Below are positions 27,428-56,257 of a stretch of 64,000 bases of DNA, in pieces. Location of the stretch: NCBI GenBank assembly GCA_024697405.1, contig JAILFU010000180.1, positions 1 through 64,000 on the forward strand, read 5' to 3'. The translations under genes were made by a program, and so were the position numbers. The notes beneath the pieces are model-generated. The model was given only the letters and a program-made list of their open reading frames with translations. It had not been told where the DNA came from and made no database searches. The stretch comes from Prevotella sp. (GTDB lineage: Bacteria > Bacteroidota > Bacteroidia > Bacteroidales > Bacteroidaceae). Every line of letters starts with the position of its first letter. Within the stretch, counting starts at the first letter, position 1.

Positions 27428-27648
27428 CAGGCCATTGTCAAGCCATTCTCTGCCCAGGGTTTACACTTAACGATAGAAAAGGCTATGTCGGTTTGAACGA
27501 CAGGTTTTTAGCAAATGATTATCCGCCGTCAGGTGGCTCGCCTTCTCCGGGGGGTGCTTCACACCGCCCGGCTATTGAGAGCCGACTCCTTCGCGGTCAC
27601 ACAAAAGTTCAACCGTACCAGGTCGAAATATCGTAATTTCGTTGGGGG

Positions 27649-28090
27649 CTCGCGCGTGTGCATATTATACGCGCGAGAAAAAGGTGCTACAGGCACTACA
27701 GGAGCATCTAACAAGTTGGTTTATAAACATTTGTTGGTAGCTACAAGGCTTTAAATGGAGCTACCGAAGTAGCTACAGGCCGATTTCTCAATTTTGCGGT
27801 ATGTAACATGCCGGATGTTACATACTGCAAAGTATTGGGAGAGAGAAACTGAGAAATGGCGTTCGCGTTTTTTCGTCCCAAGCCTTGGGACGAAAAAATA
27901 GCGTTCGTATTTTTTCAAACGGCGTTCGTATTTTTTCAAACGGCGTTCGTTTTTTCCCAAACGGAGACTCCGTTAGTGAGAAGGTTGACTGTAGCTACTA
28001 CGGTAGCTCCATTTAAAGTCCTGTAGCTACCAACAACGAATTAAATGTCAGCTGGTTAAGTGGCAAAGTAGCTCCTGTAGCGCCTTTTTT
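27649..28090. repeat. Large GTAGCTAC-rich palindromic element, family 2, copy 1
   Basis: ctcgcgcgtgtgcatattatacgcgcgag end; 40-bp inverted repeats 27737-27776 / 27991-28030; core tandem caaacggcgttcgtattttttc; hairpin ttttttcgtcccaagccttgggacgaaaaaa. Confidence 0.8.
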
Positions 28091-28146
28091 CTACTATTAG
28101 GATAATCATATTTAGCAAAATCCTTGGATGGTTGCCAGAAAATGCT

Positions 28147-28497: not shown

Positions 28498-31400
28498 ATG
28501 AAAAAGTATTTGTCTTTACTGCCATCAGTCTTGCTGCTGATAGGGACGCTGGCCGCCTACGGACAATCCACGGGTGTAGCTGAGCGTGATGTAACCATTC
28601 TGGAGTCCATCAAGTCTACGGGACTGCAGGCTTTCAACACGGGCTATACCCACAAGGCCAACACCCGCGTGGTGATGGACTGCGAGGCGACGCAGAACAC
28701 GCAGAGAAACTGGGAGGCGCTGCTGGGCGCCCGCCTGTCAGACTACATTTCCAATGCCTTCTGCTTCTTCTCGCGCCACTATAACTATTCCGCTTCCGCA
28801 GTGCAGGATTCACCCTGCTTCAACCGTTCGGGCAATGTGAAAAGCGGTTCAGGCTTTGTCTATGGCGAGCGCATCCTGCTGAGTTGCGAAGGACAGACGG
28901 CCACTTGGTTTCGCTATTCCGACCAAAGCACGGCTGTAGGCAGCGTGACCACTACTGGAACGGCCGACGACGGCAAGACCCCCATGTTTCTGTTTGACCT
29001 AAACACCTCGGCCACCGAGGGCGGCCTGAAGCAGGACAACTCGAAGTCGGTGATGACGCTCTATGGCTGCAGGATTTACGAGGGCGAGACGCTGAAGTGC
29101 GACTTCGTGCCTGCCCGATACAACGGTAAGGCTGGCCTCTACGACCGTGTGAACCACACGTTCAGCGGTTCCCTCACCGACACACCCTTTTTTGCTCCAG
29201 ATCTCGCCAATTATGAGCGTGCCCTCAACGCCATTGTAGACGGCCATAAATACCGCGTGTTTACCGAGGTAGGCGGCCTGAAGTACTATGTCACTGCCGA
29301 CGGCTATCTGACGACCGACATGGCCAGTGCACCTGCGTTCCAGATCAACAAAGTTGCTGGCTATGAGTATGCATACGGCTTCCAGCTCAAGAACGGCAAT
29401 ATCTGTTTCACCAATCCCAGAACTTATTCCGTGGCAGCTTTGACGGAGGGTCATCTGAACACAGCGGACAGGACGGATGGCCCCCGCAGCGATTGGGAAG
29501 CGCAAGTGTTCTTCCTCAACGAGCAGGGCAAGTATGCCATCCGTTCTACGAATGCCCGGAGCGGTGATACTGAATGGAGCTGGATAGGCTGTGCCTACTG
29601 GACGGTCAACGAAGGCCCCTTGGCTGAATATGGCTTCGACATGAACTACGTCTGGCAGCTGGAGGATGGCAGCGTACCTGTCACCGTCACTGAGACGACC
29701 ACTGTCTTAGGGGGTGACTTGACCTACAAGGTGACCGGCGTCGTGAACCTTGACACCCGACTCCGGGTAAACGGCAGACCCACGCTCGTCCTCGACAAGG
29801 GCGCCACGCTCAACGCCCCGATGGGTATTGAAGTGTCTTACAGCCCGGAAGAATGTACCCTCACCATCGAGGGCAGCGGTGCATTGAACGCCTTCGCCGA
29901 AAATGGCGATGCTGCCATCGGCGGTAGCAGAGGTAATCGCTGCGGCACAGTTATCATCCATGGTGGCCAGATAACGGTTAACAGTGGCGATAACAGTGTC
30001 GGTATTGGCCCGGGCCAGTGGGGAGATGTCCATTTTGGCTATCTCACACTCGGCTGGACCAATCCCAGCGACTTCGTATCCGTCAATAGCGTTAAATTCT
30101 ATAATACTGATAGAATCAGTTTTGCCGAGGGCAAGAAATTCCTGGTCGACGGCACCGATACCGAGGCCACTACCGACAACATTGCAGGCCAAAAGCTGTT
30201 ACCCATGACCAGCGACGTCATCACCGAGAGCACCACGCTGCTGGGCGACGGCTGCACGTACTACGTGAACACCGACGTGACCAACGCCAACCGCATCAGG
30301 GTGATGGGCTCGGCTGTGCTGCATCTGGGCGAGGGCGCCACGCTCACCGCCACGAAGGGCTTCCAGGTGGAAGATGACAACACGCTCACCATCGAGGGCG
30401 ACGGCGTGCTGATAGCTACTGCCAGCACCCATGACGCTGCCATCGGCGGCGGCGATGGCAGCGGTAGCGTCCGTGATGTTCCCTACGGACACATCATCAT
30501 TAACGGCGGCAACGTCACCGCCACAGGCGGAGAGGATGGCGCTGGCATCGGCGGCGGCGTGATGAACAGGCCGGGAACCGGCAGCATCACCATCAATGGC
30601 GGCGTGGTCAACGCCACGGGTGGAAAGGAGGCCGCTGGCATCGGCGGCGGTGCTAATTTCTGGTACTCCTCGCCCGATTATGCGGAATGTGGTACGGCTG
30701 GTACCATTATCATCAATGGCGGACAGGTGACGGCCACCGGTGGAACTGACGATAGCAATGCGCTTTATGCGGGCATAGGCCGGGGACTAAACGGCCCGGA
30801 CGACGGCCAGCTGACGCTCGGCTGGACCTTGGAGTCCGACTACCTCCAGGCCAACAGCTACGACGCAGGCACCGTCACCTTTGCCCAGGGCAAGTTCTTC
30901 GCCGTCTATACCGAGGGCACCAAGATTACCCCCGAGAACATCGCCACGGCCAACGGGAAGAAGCTGGTTCCCTGGTTCGAGCCGGGCACCATCGACCTCT
31001 CCGCACTGACCAGCGACCGCAAGGCCAGGAATGGCGACCTGGTGACGGGACGGCTGTCTGGCAACTACAAGATCTCGATTGCCGATGGCGCCACCGTCAC
31101 ACTGCGCGATGTGACCATCAACGGCGTGAGTGAGTTTGATGATGACTACTCTCGCCTCTATGAATGGGCAGGCATCAGCTGCGAGGGCGACGCCACCATC
31201 ATCCTCGAGGGCGAGAACACGGTGAAGGGATTCTTCGCCTACTATCCCGGCATCCACGTGCCTGAGGGCAAGACGCTCACCATCAAGGGCGACGGATCGC
31301 TCGACGCCAGCAGCAACGAATTTGCGGTCAGCATCGACGGAGCGATTGACATCGGCGGAGCGGCAGGCATCGGCGGAGGCTACATGCTCAGCTGTGGCAA

Positions 31401-32868
31401 CATCGTCATCGAGGGCGGCACCATCACCGCAACGGGCGGTGAGCTGGCTGCAGGCATCGGCAGCGGTTGCTCAGCCGGAGAGACTGTCAGCGCATGTGGC
31501 AACATCACCATCACCGGCGGAACGGTCACCGCCTCATCTACGAAAGAGGCCGCCGGCATCGGCTGCGGCTCCGGAGAAACGGGCGATATACACTCTCGGT
31601 GTGGCGACATCACCATCACCGACCAGGTGAACTGCGTCACGGCCATCAGCCCCGACCGCCCCTTTGCCCTCGGCAACTCTATCAATGGCAATTGTGGCAA
31701 GGTGACCATTGGCGGCATAGAGACGGGTAGCATCATGATGTATAAATTCGTCTATAATCCCAACAGCGTGGCAGAGGGCGTGGTCAACCTGCTGACACTC
31801 AACAACGACTACGTGGCGCAGAACGGCGACATCCTCTACGGCATACTGCTAGCCGATGTCAGGATCAAGATTGCCGACGGAGCCACCGTCACCCTGCGCG
31901 ACGCCAGCATCAATAGCAAGCAAAGCCGCAATTTCACGTGGGAAGCCATCGAATGTCTGGGCGATGCCACCATCATCCTCGAAGGCGAGAACGAAGTGGT
32001 GGGTGGCGACTCAAAAGCCGGCATCTACGTGCCTGCCAACAAGACGCTCACCATCAAGGGTACTGGTTCGCTCAATGCGTCAAATGGCAACTATTTTGCA
32101 GCAGCCATCGGTGGCAGCAAAAACACTGACTGTGGCAACATCGTCATCGAGGGCGGCAACATCCATGCTGTTGGCGGACAGGGTGCTGCGGGCATAGGAG
32201 GACCCTCTGGTGGAAGGTGTGGCGACATCACCATCACTGGAGGCACCATCTATGCCGAGAGCGAAAGGTTTGGTGCCGGCATAGGCAGTGGCCGGTCAGG
32301 CTCGTGCGGAAACATCACCATCACCGGAGGCGACATCTATGCTAAGGGTGGAGAGATTGCCGCTGGCATAGGTACTGCTGCTGCCTTTAATGAAGGAGAA
32401 TCTAGCCGCTGTGGCGATATCACCATCACCGACGGAATCACCAGCGTCGTCGCAGTGGGGCCGAACGGCCTCCTTTATGGAACGAACGCACAGCTTCCCA
32501 TTGGCGCTGGTGACGGCGGCACCTGCGGCACCGTCACCATCAGCCAGAACCTGGACGACGTGATAGAGGACTACGAGGTAGATGATTACAATAAAGGTAA
32601 AAAGCGCACCCTCACCCGGAGAATCATTCCTGGTGACGTGAACGGCGACAACAAGGTGACGCCCGCCGATGCCATCATGATTCTCTACTACTACTTCGGG
32701 GTGAACCAGAATGGATTCGTCCTCGGCGCTGCCGACCTCAACGGCGACACGAAGATTACACCCGCCGACGCCATAGAGGCCCTCTACAAGTACTTCGGTG
32801 TCGGCACGGGTAACAGCAATGCACGCGCCAACCGACCGACGGCGAATGACAGCCGCGACCCGGAGTGA
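28498..32868 (+). CDS. Large secreted repeat protein (LamG-like N-terminal region, GGxxxAAGIGGG-type beta repeats, dockerin-like C-terminus)
   Basis: Repeats such as 'ITINGGVVNATGGKEAAGIGGG'; C-term 'GDVNGDNKVTPADAIMILYYYFG...ADLNGDTKITPADAIEALYKYFG'. Confidence 0.8.
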   Translation: MKKYLSLLPSVLLLIGTLAAYGQSTGVAERDVTILESIKSTGLQAFNTGYTHKANTRVVMDCEATQNTQRNWEALLGARLSDYISNAFCFFSRHYNYSASAVQDSPCFNRSGNVKSGSGFVYGERILLSCEGQTATWFRYSDQSTAVGSVTTTGTADDGKTPMFLFDLNTSATEGGLKQDNSKSVMTLYGCRIYEGETLKCDFVPARYNGKAGLYDRVNHTFSGSLTDTPFFAPDLANYERALNAIVDGHKYRVFTEVGGLKYYVTADGYLTTDMASAPAFQINKVAGYEYAYGFQLKNGNICFTNPRTYSVAALTEGHLNTADRTDGPRSDWEAQVFFLNEQGKYAIRSTNARSGDTEWSWIGCAYWTVNEGPLAEYGFDMNYVWQLEDGSVPVTVTETTTVLGGDLTYKVTGVVNLDTRLRVNGRPTLVLDKGATLNAPMGIEVSYSPEECTLTIEGSGALNAFAENGDAAIGGSRGNRCGTVIIHGGQITVNSGDNSVGIGPGQWGDVHFGYLTLGWTNPSDFVSVNSVKFYNTDRISFAEGKKFLVDGTDTEATTDNIAGQKLLPMTSDVITESTTLLGDGCTYYVNTDVTNANRIRVMGSAVLHLGEGATLTATKGFQVEDDNTLTIEGDGVLIATASTHDAAIGGGDGSGSVRDVPYGHIIINGGNVTATGGEDGAGIGGGVMNRPGTGSITINGGVVNATGGKEAAGIGGGANFWYSSPDYAECGTAGTIIINGGQVTATGGTDDSNALYAGIGRGLNGPDDGQLTLGWTLESDYLQANSYDAGTVTFAQGKFFAVYTEGTKITPENIATANGKKLVPWFEPGTIDLSALTSDRKARNGDLVTGRLSGNYKISIADGATVTLRDVTINGVSEFDDDYSRLYEWAGISCEGDATIILEGENTVKGFFAYYPGIHVPEGKTLTIKGDGSLDASSNEFAVSIDGAIDIGGAAGIGGGYMLSCGNIVIEGGTITATGGELAAGIGSGCSAGETVSACGNITITGGTVTASSTKEAAGIGCGSGETGDIHSRCGDITITDQVNCVTAISPDRPFALGNSINGNCGKVTIGGIETGSIMMYKFVYNPNSVAEGVVNLLTLNNDYVAQNGDILYGILLADVRIKIADGATVTLRDASINSKQSRNFTWEAIECLGDATIILEGENEVVGGDSKAGIYVPANKTLTIKGTGSLNASNGNYFAAAIGGSKNTDCGNIVIEGGNIHAVGGQGAAGIGGPSGGRCGDITITGGTIYAESERFGAGIGSGRSGSCGNITITGGDIYAKGGEIAAGIGTAAAFNEGESSRCGDITITDGITSVVAVGPNGLLYGTNAQLPIGAGDGGTCGTVTISQNLDDVIEDYEVDDYNKGKKRTLTRRIIPGDVNGDNKVTPADAIMILYYYFGVNQNGFVLGAADLNGDTKITPADAIEALYKYFGVGTGNSNARANRPTANDSRDPE

Positions 32869-33072: not shown

Positions 33073-33230
33073 GACACAAATTGTGGAAAATTGTTGGAAA
33101 ATTTGGGGAAAGTCTTTGAACACGAATTGTGGAAAATTGTTGGAAAATTTGGGAAAAGTCTTTGAACACGAATTGTGGAAAATTGTGGGAAAATTAGGGG
33201 AAAATCTTTGGACACGAATTGTGGAAAAAT
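33073..33230. repeat. Tandem ~46-bp repeats (acacgaattgtggaaaattgttggaaaatttggggaaagtctttga)
   Basis: About 3.5 consecutive copies read directly. Confidence 0.85.
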
Positions 33231-33233
33231 CCG

Positions 33234-33480
33234 AGCTGTACCGTTGACCCAGGACTTCTCCAGCGGTAGCCACTCCCCTCCCTTCAAGGGGAGGGGCAGG
33301 GGTGGGGTCTCTAACTTTTTCCAAGGAGAAGAACAGACGATAACAGATTCGTTGAAGGGTGGGGTCTCTAACTCTTTCCAAGGAGAAGAACAGACGATAA
33401 CAGAATCGTTGAAGGGTGGGGTCTCTTACTTTTCCGAGGAGAAAACACAAACGATAACAGATTCGTTGAAAGGATATTAG
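33234..33480 (+). mobile_element. Family 1 element, copy D (truncated; internal 57-bp unit present three times)
   Basis: ccactcccctcccttcaaggggaggggcaggggtggggtctctaac plus three 57-bp units starting 33301, 33358, 33415. Confidence 0.75.
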
Positions 33481-33501
33481 TGCCCCTGCCCCGTCTTCGC
33501 C

Positions 33502-33671
33502 CCACCGTCGCTTCGTTCCCCCATTGCTTCGGCCCCCGTCGCTTCGCTCCCCAATCGCTCCGGCCCCCGTCGCATCGCTCCCCAATCGCTCCGGCCCCCG
33601 TCGCTTCGCTCCCCAATCGCTCCCTCCTCGCGATTGCCTCGCGATTGCCTCGCGATTGCCTCGCAATTACC
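33502..33671. repeat. Two adjacent tandem arrays: 31-bp unit x4, then 11-bp unit (ctcgcgattgc) x4
   Basis: ccccgtcgcttcgctccccaatcgctccgg at 31-bp spacing; ctcgcgattgc at 33627, 33638, 33649, 33660. Confidence 0.85.
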
Positions 33672-48218: not shown

Positions 48219-49005
48219 GACATAGAGACATAAGGACATAAGGGCATAGGGATATAAGGACATAGGAACATAAAGACATAGGAACATAAAGACATAAGAA
48301 CATAAGAACATAAGGACATAAGAACATAAGGACATAAAGACAAAAGGACATAGAGACAAAAGGACATAGAGACAAAAGGACATAAGGACATAAGGACATA
48401 AAGACATAAGGACATAAAGACATAAGGACATAAGAACATAAGGACAAAAGAACATAAAGACATAAAGACATAAAGACATAAGGATAGATGAATAGACATA
48501 AGAACATAAAAACAGATTTATTTGGCAGAATGGCAGAAGGCATAATAACTCATGCGGAGCTTTTTGTCCTTATGTTCTTCTGTCAAAAAAATATACCCTT
48601 GTGTTCTTCTGTCAAAAATATGTCCTTATGTTCTTCTGTCAAAAAAATATACCCTTGTGTTCTTCTGTCAAAAAAATATACCTTTGTGTTCTTCTGTCAA
48701 AAATATGTCCTTATGTTCTTCTGTCAAAAAAATATACCCTTGTGTTCTTCTGTCAAAAATATGTCCTTATGTTCTTATGTCAAAAAAATATACCCTTGTG
48801 TTCTTCTGTCAAAAAAATATACCCTTGTGTTCTTCTGTCAAAAATATGTCCTTATGTTCTTATGTCAAAAAATATACCCTTGTGTTCTTCTGTCAAAAAT
48901 ATGTCCTTATGTTCTTATGTCAAAAAAATACACTATTATGTTCTTCTGTCAAAAACACGTCCTTATGTCTTTATGTCAACGACAAGTGCTTATGTCAAAA
49001 AGACG
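48219..49005. repeat. Long low-complexity block: ~8-bp ACATAARR repeats (left arm) facing 27/28-bp repeats of partly complementary sequence (right arm)
   Basis: Left: gacataaggacataagaacataagg...; right: ttatgttcttctgtcaaaaatatgtcc... Confidence 0.9.
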
Positions 49006-55404: not shown

Positions 55405-55825
55405 ACGCTATACGCGCGCGCGTGAGACGTTTTTTGGCGCTACAAGCGCTACATTGATGCCTAACCTTCTGGTATGTAAACCGTTGCTTGTAGCTACAGC
55501 ACGCTTTTTGGTGCTACTATTGTAGCTACAGTTCCAAACGGCGTTCGTATTCTTCCAAATGGCGGCAGTATTTTCCCAAACGGCGGCAGTATTTTTCCAA
55601 ACGGCGGCAGTATTTTTCCAAACAGCGGCAGTATTTTCCCAAACGGCGGCAGTTTTTTTTCAAACGGCGGCAGTTTTTTCCTCCACCACTTCTCTCTGCC
55701 TGTAGCTACTAGAGTAGCGCGAAAAAGAACGGTGTGGCTACAGACATTTACTTGTCGCTCAGTCGGTTTGGTGCCAAAGTAGCTCGTGTAGCGCGTCTTT
55801 TTCGCGCGTATTATACGCGCGCGAG
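55405..55825. repeat. Large GTAGCTAC-rich palindromic element, family 2, copy 2
   Basis: gctatacgcgcgcgcgtgag ... cgcgcgtattatacgcgcgcgag; ~7 tandem 21-22-bp units (ccaaacggcggcagtatttt) at 55534-55681. Confidence 0.8.
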
Positions 55826-56099
55826 ATCATCCGCCCCATGCTTAACTCGAAAAAGTTCCATTATATAATAATTATTGTTCGCAGGCGCACGAACATTATT
55901 TTATTTAGTAAAGATATAGCAGTTGAACTATTCGTGCGCAGTGCCATTTGTCTTATTCTCCACTTTGCGGAGTTTTTAGTCCAGTGTCTACTGCTTTTTC
56001 CCCCGATATTGTTGTTAAGAGCTTCCTGTCTATGTGTTAAATAATTATAAATATTGATTCTGGAGCTAGGAATATGACCGAAAACTGCGAAAAAAGCAG

Positions 56100-56107: not shown

Positions 56108-56257
56108 CAGTCCGATTATTAGGGGAGAGTCTTAGAATCCCCACGGACGTCGTGTAAATAGCGTCTGTCTTTGGCCGGACAGCGTGGTTTGTGAATCGGC
56201 GTTCAACAAGAGAACTTTATAAAGTAAAAGACTGTTTTTTAGTAATTTAACGAAGAA

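Follow-up and report, generated by a model that had tools for sequence, protein, structure and literature searches.

Short two-arm elements dispersed in a Prevotella genome share their motif spacing with arms around VapE-type primase-helicase genes

The window, a stretch of 64,000 nucleotides from Prevotella sp., holds two copies of a palindromic element, and both are members of a real, dispersed, non-autonomous element family. We consider it probable that they belong, as short MITE-like members without genes, to a Bacteroidota family of mobile elements organised as arm, VapE gene and inverted arm, with putative iterons in the arms and mobilisation in trans. An identical spacing of arm motifs, here called the ruler, and deletion derivatives of gene-bearing elements together point to the family of copies 1 and 2 as a gene-less derivative of a VapE element.

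The features of both copies are collected in Table 1. For copy 1, the sequence-only reading had described an outer CG palindrome, two core hairpins and tandem core units; all are present, the units with a period of 21 bp. Its 40-bp inverted repeat (27737-27776 versus 27991-28030) holds exactly at 37/40 but in fact extends to a 113-nt arm pair, matching at 75% (27678-27790 / 27977-28089). The same plan had been claimed for copy 2. There the arms recur, as does the minisatellite (seven units); neither of copy 1's two core hairpins was found in copy 2, so the shared plan is limited to arms and minisatellite. The perfect hairpin of copy 1 is also present, beside repeat units (bricks), in CTGCA-type elements.

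Table 1 Features of the two elements, in window coordinates
Feature	Position	Strand	Basis or remark
Copy 1, GTAGC-type two-arm element	27648..28091	+	right CG tract degraded
Copy 1, left outer CG-alternating palindrome	27648..27677	.	sequence
Copy 1, left arm with GCTAC iteron-like motifs	27677..27778	+	R1 positions 3-104, 68.9 bits, E 8.5e-19
Copy 1, core hairpin TATGTAACAT, TTTGCGGTATGTAACAT / ATGTTACATACTGCAAA	27793..27831	.	17-nt arms, 94%
Copy 1, perfect 15-nt core hairpin TTTTTTCGTCCCAAG / CTTGGGACGAAAAAA	27868..27898	.	sequence
Copy 1, 21-bp minisatellite units AAACGGCGTTCGTATTTTTTC	27896..27964 (tandem run 27901-27964)	+	extra unit at 27854-27874
Copy 1, right arm	27989..28091	-	R1 positions 2-104, 83.1 bits, E 3.1e-23
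Copy 2, GTAGC-type two-arm element	55408..55825 (or 55405-55830)	+	sequence, BLAST
Copy 2, left arm	55431..55531	+	R1 match, 89.7 bits, E 2.8e-25
Copy 2, seven 21-bp units TTCCAAACGGCGGCAGTATTT	55532..55681	+	repeat analysis
Copy 2, right arm	55700..55801	-	R1 match, 84 bits, E 1.7e-23
Copy 2, right outer CG-alternating palindrome CGCGCGTATTATACGCGCGCGAG	55803..55825	.	sequence

Copy 1 has genes for a glycoside hydrolase 115 and a dockerin/beta-helix protein as neighbours. At 28498-32865 the window encodes a beta-helix protein of 1456 aa with a C-terminal dockerin type I, adjoining GH115 and esterase genes (Prevotella). The neighbours of copy 2 are yicC and the rplM operon. At the corresponding site in L369, yicC and rplM are spaced 317 bp apart, without the element, and no arm upstream of rplM was found in the relatives examined. 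An L13-Bacteroidia ribosomal leader (Rfam RF03127, 70 bits) lies upstream of rplM at window 56122-56197, ~300 bp downstream of copy 2. Big minisatellite arrays at 33074-33668 and 48219-48979 of the window (periods 46, 57, 31; 8/16; 29/56/85 bp) are unrelated.

A genome-wide search with both copies, as the sequence-only reading had advised, revealed dozens of further copies in the same genome, BLAST giving 129 matches with copy 1 and 89 with copy 2, far more than chance would yield. The profile R1 was made from 39 arms (37 from this genome and two from G195), which align without indels over 104 columns and have invariant GCTAC or TAGC blocks. It matched at least 150 arms in the assembly (3.55 Mb, 228 contigs). 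EF-Ts is 94-97% identical to that of rumen Prevotella MAGs, which places the genome among the rumen Prevotella. The fetched part of the genome contains 72 non-redundant complete two-arm elements, whose arms, ~104 bp each, face one another across a core of 21-bp units that in some copies also includes hairpins. The cores differ in length by steps of about 21 bp (127, 148, 169, 190, 211 ...), so that the number of units varies among copies. Most element ends carry outer CG- or TA-alternating tracts, and only 5/72 elements are mostly covered by an ORF longer than 150 aa.

Being short, devoid of coding capacity, bounded by terminal inverted repeats and present in many copies, the elements have the attributes of MITEs. 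That they are ordinary MITEs of a DDE transposon, their arms being long terminal repeats moved by a classical (e.g. ISKra4-like) transposase, is nonetheless unlikely. No target-site duplication was detected, words common to the two flanks of one element being no commoner than in shuffled flanks, and the arm ruler is common to VapE genes, not transposases. A candidate parent does exist in one contig (G000:C218), where a 399-aa ORF weakly matching ISKra4/ISLre2 transposase models and a 102-aa ORF lie between GTAGC arms and mirrored 21-bp units. The insert nevertheless has an inverted repeat of its own (CGACCTGTGCAGTTG...CAACTGCACAGGTCG) inside the minisatellite, as a nested IS would; we therefore read the gene pair as a nested IS and rejected it as the parent. 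The ORF pair, bounded by CGACCTGTGCAGTTG inverted repeats and mirrored bricks, occupies L231 1037-3299, and the same junction occurs in L052. No transposase-encoding autonomous element sharing the ends was found; the gene-bearing elements that share the ruler encode VapE.

A second family of two-arm elements in this genome shares the core of hairpin and bricks, its arms being made of CCTGCA motifs. Its members (L009, L014, L016, L020, L024, L025, L027, L030) have GTGTACAC or GTAGTACAC as middle site. One locus, L124 (G000:C122:56441-56700), is a chimera: its left arm is of GTAGC type and its right arm of CTGCA type, which looks like recombination via the shared bricks, or is an assembly artefact. 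A different palindromic repeat (GGCAAYRATATAGCAGTTGACC...) frequently abuts these elements or is nested in them (flanks of L005, L050, L013, L008).

Conservation in the arms is concentrated in the motifs. Across 144 arms, conservation is 97% in motif columns and 67% in the remaining ones. In 28 independent close arm pairs, 16/303 differences fall in motif columns versus 90 expected (p=5.5e-27), a figure that may be inflated since the arm set was collected with a motif-weighted profile. So few differences in motif columns indicate that motifs are kept while spacers drift. The likeness of left to right spacers is 0.580 within one element and 0.563 between elements, which speaks against arm-arm pairing, be it in RNA or in cruciform DNA, as the conserved feature. 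The long inverted repeats and perfect hairpins would suit a structured RNA or regulatory hairpin, one of the options of the sequence-only reading. We regard it as highly improbable: left and right spacers do not covary, the core hairpins are missing in copy 2, a CCCAAG hairpin occurs in 13/72 copies only, and Rfam returned nothing but the unrelated L13 leader.

In the indel-free GTAGC arm consensus, GCTAC motifs stand at offsets 0, 9, 74 and 86, with an inverted one at 51; in full, the offsets of GTAGC elements are 0, 9, inverted 51, 54, 74 and 86. The largest group of VapE arms has offsets of 0, 9, (inverted 53/54), 74 or 75, 85/86 and 96/97, whatever the letters. Arms of G116 follow 0, 9, 74, 86/84 and 96 (51 arms), the CCTGCA elements 0, 8, 74 and 85, and a second VapE group 0, 8, 52, 62 and 72. 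Repeated 7-mers per arm, compared with shuffles, proved too weak a measure for several single arms, and a ruler test was used instead. At VapE loci collected by Pfam only (L281, L295, L296, L307), the inner motif lies at 74/75 in 6/7 arms, versus 0.017 expected from shuffles; the arms have other motifs (CTGCTAT, CCACTAT, CCGCTAT) on the same ruler. These offsets demonstrate one motif ruler (0, 9, inverted ~51-54, 74/75, 85/86, often 96/97) common to arms of the copy 1/2 type and to VapE-flanking arms, with differing motif letters.

R1 itself matches beside genes for a ~700-aa VapE protein in six genomes (G031, G197, G269, G320, G160, G351). In G031, G197 and G269 it matches both arms of an inverted pair, about 2.4-2.6 kb apart. 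Where scanned, the protein has BT4734-like primase, VapE and DUF5906 domains. Its helicase domain has a match in PDB 7pds, an entry named 'Similar to D. nodosus vapE' (E 1.2e-5), and its C-terminal region is winged-helix-like in sequence by eye, in classes that go with motif classes. Motif divergence tracks VapE divergence overall, the C-terminal domain being inseparable from the rest in the correlation test.

We collected 38 VapE loci with their flanks by Pfam PF08800 alone, in genomes chosen mostly for arm or brick matches. Inverted arms exceed shuffles in 20/38 of them, and 17/38 reach an inverted-arm score of at least 25, versus 0/118 control ORFs (control maximum 16.4); about half of the tested loci have no clear arms. 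In the gene-bearing elements, one BT4734/VapE-type primase-helicase gene stands between an arm and its inverted counterpart; the downstream arm usually starts no more than about 20 bp from the VapE stop codon. The repeated motif is particular to each locus (GGGCTACT, GTGCTAC, CTGCTAT, CCACTAT, CCGCTAT, GGGTGACA, GTTGACAC, GGTTGTCA, TGCCACAC and others). Arms are also present in L437, a Bacteroides finegoldii record, and in L439, a contig from human gut. No integrase or transposase was found between VapE arms; integrase, att sites and phage-packaging genes are absent between the arms and from the flanks inspected. VapE is the sole constant partner of the arms. L288, L309, L310, L311 and L436 have, upstream of VapE, a small gene similar to annotated DUF6078 (between the arms in L288, L309 and L311), and a HU-like gene follows the right arm in L290, L291, L300 and L312.

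Short elements can be aligned directly to gene-bearing ones. L241 matches L305, both of G160, over 300 bp (78%, E 9e-64), L240 matches L234, both of G269 (E 3e-30), and L250 (G354) is a third short two-arm element aligning to a VapE element. All three short elements align over an arm and the region upstream of VapE and lack the gene itself. In two genomes (G160, G269), short two-arm elements are shown to be copies, with an internal deletion, of a VapE element of that genome. Deletion is the way in which MITEs arise, yet here it starts from a primase-helicase element. Together with the dispersed copies and their restriction to lineages, such relatives of a gene-bearing element lend good support to the non-autonomous mobile element that the sequence-only reading had listed among its options.

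In L305 the homology ends about 4 bp past the stop codon of a HU gene, which delimits the mobile unit as arm-VapE-arm without HU. The arms could also be binding arrays for the neighbouring HU-type proteins, serving nucleoid organisation, with VapE merely travelling along; in many VapE loci the arms do have an HU-HIG or HU gene as their immediate outer neighbour. We hold this to be quite improbable, because the HU gene is missing or on the other side in several loci, a DUF6078-like gene lies inside the arms elsewhere, and the homology of the deletion derivatives ends at the arm edge, excluding HU. HU proteins beside VapE elements could still be real readers of the motifs.

The sequence-only reading was to be abandoned if related genomes held no further copies; related arms were detected in a further 16 genomes of the genus, R1 matching 17/398 with the copies' own genome included. 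G116 had a separate burst of 91-128 arms with the motif GTGCTAC. The brick pattern is found in 6/398 genomes, its reversed control giving 0 matches, and the exact pattern is absent from the named genomes searched. A brick match in G025 was discarded as a chance occurrence inside an ORF. Likewise dismissed was the sole arm-pattern match in viral contigs, which sits within a long ORF; no VapE relative was found in viral contigs. A further two-arm family, with GGTGCA-motif arms and bricks CAAACGGAGCCGCTATTTTTC, occurs in G266 (L131, L136).

The cognate gene was sought in the arm-rich genomes. No VapE with the GCTAC motif on the ruler was found in the copies' own genome, an assembly 85% complete, whose VapE (C15, L281) is preceded by a CTGCTAT arm with offsets 0, 9 and 75. 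In G116 (76% complete assembly) no VapE gene at all was found, despite its many arms. Added iterons inhibit iteron replicons, and the arms might thus be decoy or incompatibility sites, that is, chromosomal iteron arrays kept by the host to titrate the initiator of invading VapE replicons. The apparent selective maintenance of motif columns in single copies, the number of arms (at least 150 per genome) and the lack of a cognate VapE in the arm-richest genomes would agree with such a role. Deletion derivatives at separate loci and lineage-specific bursts nevertheless fit selfish spread without host benefit, and we find the decoy reading improbable.

The motifs are most likely iterons read by a cognate VapE, by analogy with SaPI Rep, Cch2 and P4 alpha. 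In the mechanism that we propose, the C-terminal winged-helix-like domain of that VapE would bind the arm motifs, and the protein would load at the two inverted arms and copy the DNA between them. The copied product would presumably then be inserted elsewhere. Short gene-less elements would be mobilised by VapE in trans, and their 21-bp core may act as a passive spacer of varying unit number. As neither a transposase between the arms, nor target duplication, nor, in this incomplete genome, a cognate VapE came to light, the VapE mechanism is one that we infer. A replication-associated site, also among the options of the sequence-only reading, is probably right, in that the arms match iteron-like arms around primase-helicase genes.

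To our knowledge, the BOX elements of Streptococcus pneumoniae have no sequence relation to the two-arm elements, for which, unlike BOX, a parent element has been identified. BOX elements are alike in being modular, with ends and a variable number of internal repeats (PMC10969869). Closer in its host is the BrickBuilt MITE of Porphyromonas gingivalis, which is also of Bacteroidales, intergenic and dispersed (about 20 copies), and in which a leader and a tail enclose a tandem minisatellite whose unit number varies (PMC4596501). It has a 23-nt unit AGAYCATARTATCCTCTCRTRTG and 12-bp IS5-type terminal repeats, with ends GAGACCTTTGCA (PMC4596501). In contrast, the present elements have a 21-bp unit of other sequence, ~104-bp iteron-like GCTAC arms, CG-palindrome ends and VapE, not IS5, relatives; repeat unit and ends thus rule out BrickBuilt membership. 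A RAYT/REP origin was set aside, the own genome having a single Y1 transposase.

SaPI, PICI, SCCmec Cch2 and P4 elements also combine a VapE- or D5-type helicase and a primase with element-specific short repeats in two sets beside the gene (PMC6092414, PMC7581432). SaPI Rep and SCCmec Cch2 use their C-terminal domains to bind short iterons that lie downstream of the respective genes (PMC7581432), the origins of Gram-negative PICIs are two iteron sets flanking an AT-rich region (PMC6092414), and a winged-helix domain of P4 alpha binds origin repeats (PMC4234260). A primase-helicase gene beside clustered short repeats, as in SaPI, PICI and P4, is seen in the gene-bearing relatives; the short elements have the repeats only. 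Those systems have one origin region (in P4, ori and crr), an integrase or recombinase, and accessory genes, whereas here two inverted arms enclose the VapE gene, an integrase is lacking, and gene-less copies are scattered. The enclosed gene is a member of the BT4734/BF3469 AEP primases (PF08800), an orphan family in PMC5862659, the passages of which consulted here mention neither arms, repeats nor mobile derivatives. We set the family apart from the known kinds because the defining features of MITEs and of SaPI/PICI/P4 elements that were tested are lacking.

Tentatively, this may be a transposable element without a transposase: a primase-polymerase/helicase would recognise paired inverted origin-like arms, copy the DNA between them and so spread itself and its gene-less derivatives, while lineages change the motif and keep the ruler. 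The family hints at a broader class of iteron-armed primase-helicase elements, apparently undescribed in the open-licence full text searched. It ties an anonymous repeat to the common, unexplained BT4734/VapE gene family, and offers a readable recognition code, in which one fixed spacing ruler accommodates many motif alphabets, and every alphabet seems to have an initiator of its own. Should the arms prove to be origins, there are more than 100 potential sites of initiation on these chromosomes; should replication alone move the elements, theirs would be a mode of transposition not described in the same literature. In both cases, what BT4734/VapE proteins do can now be tested directly.
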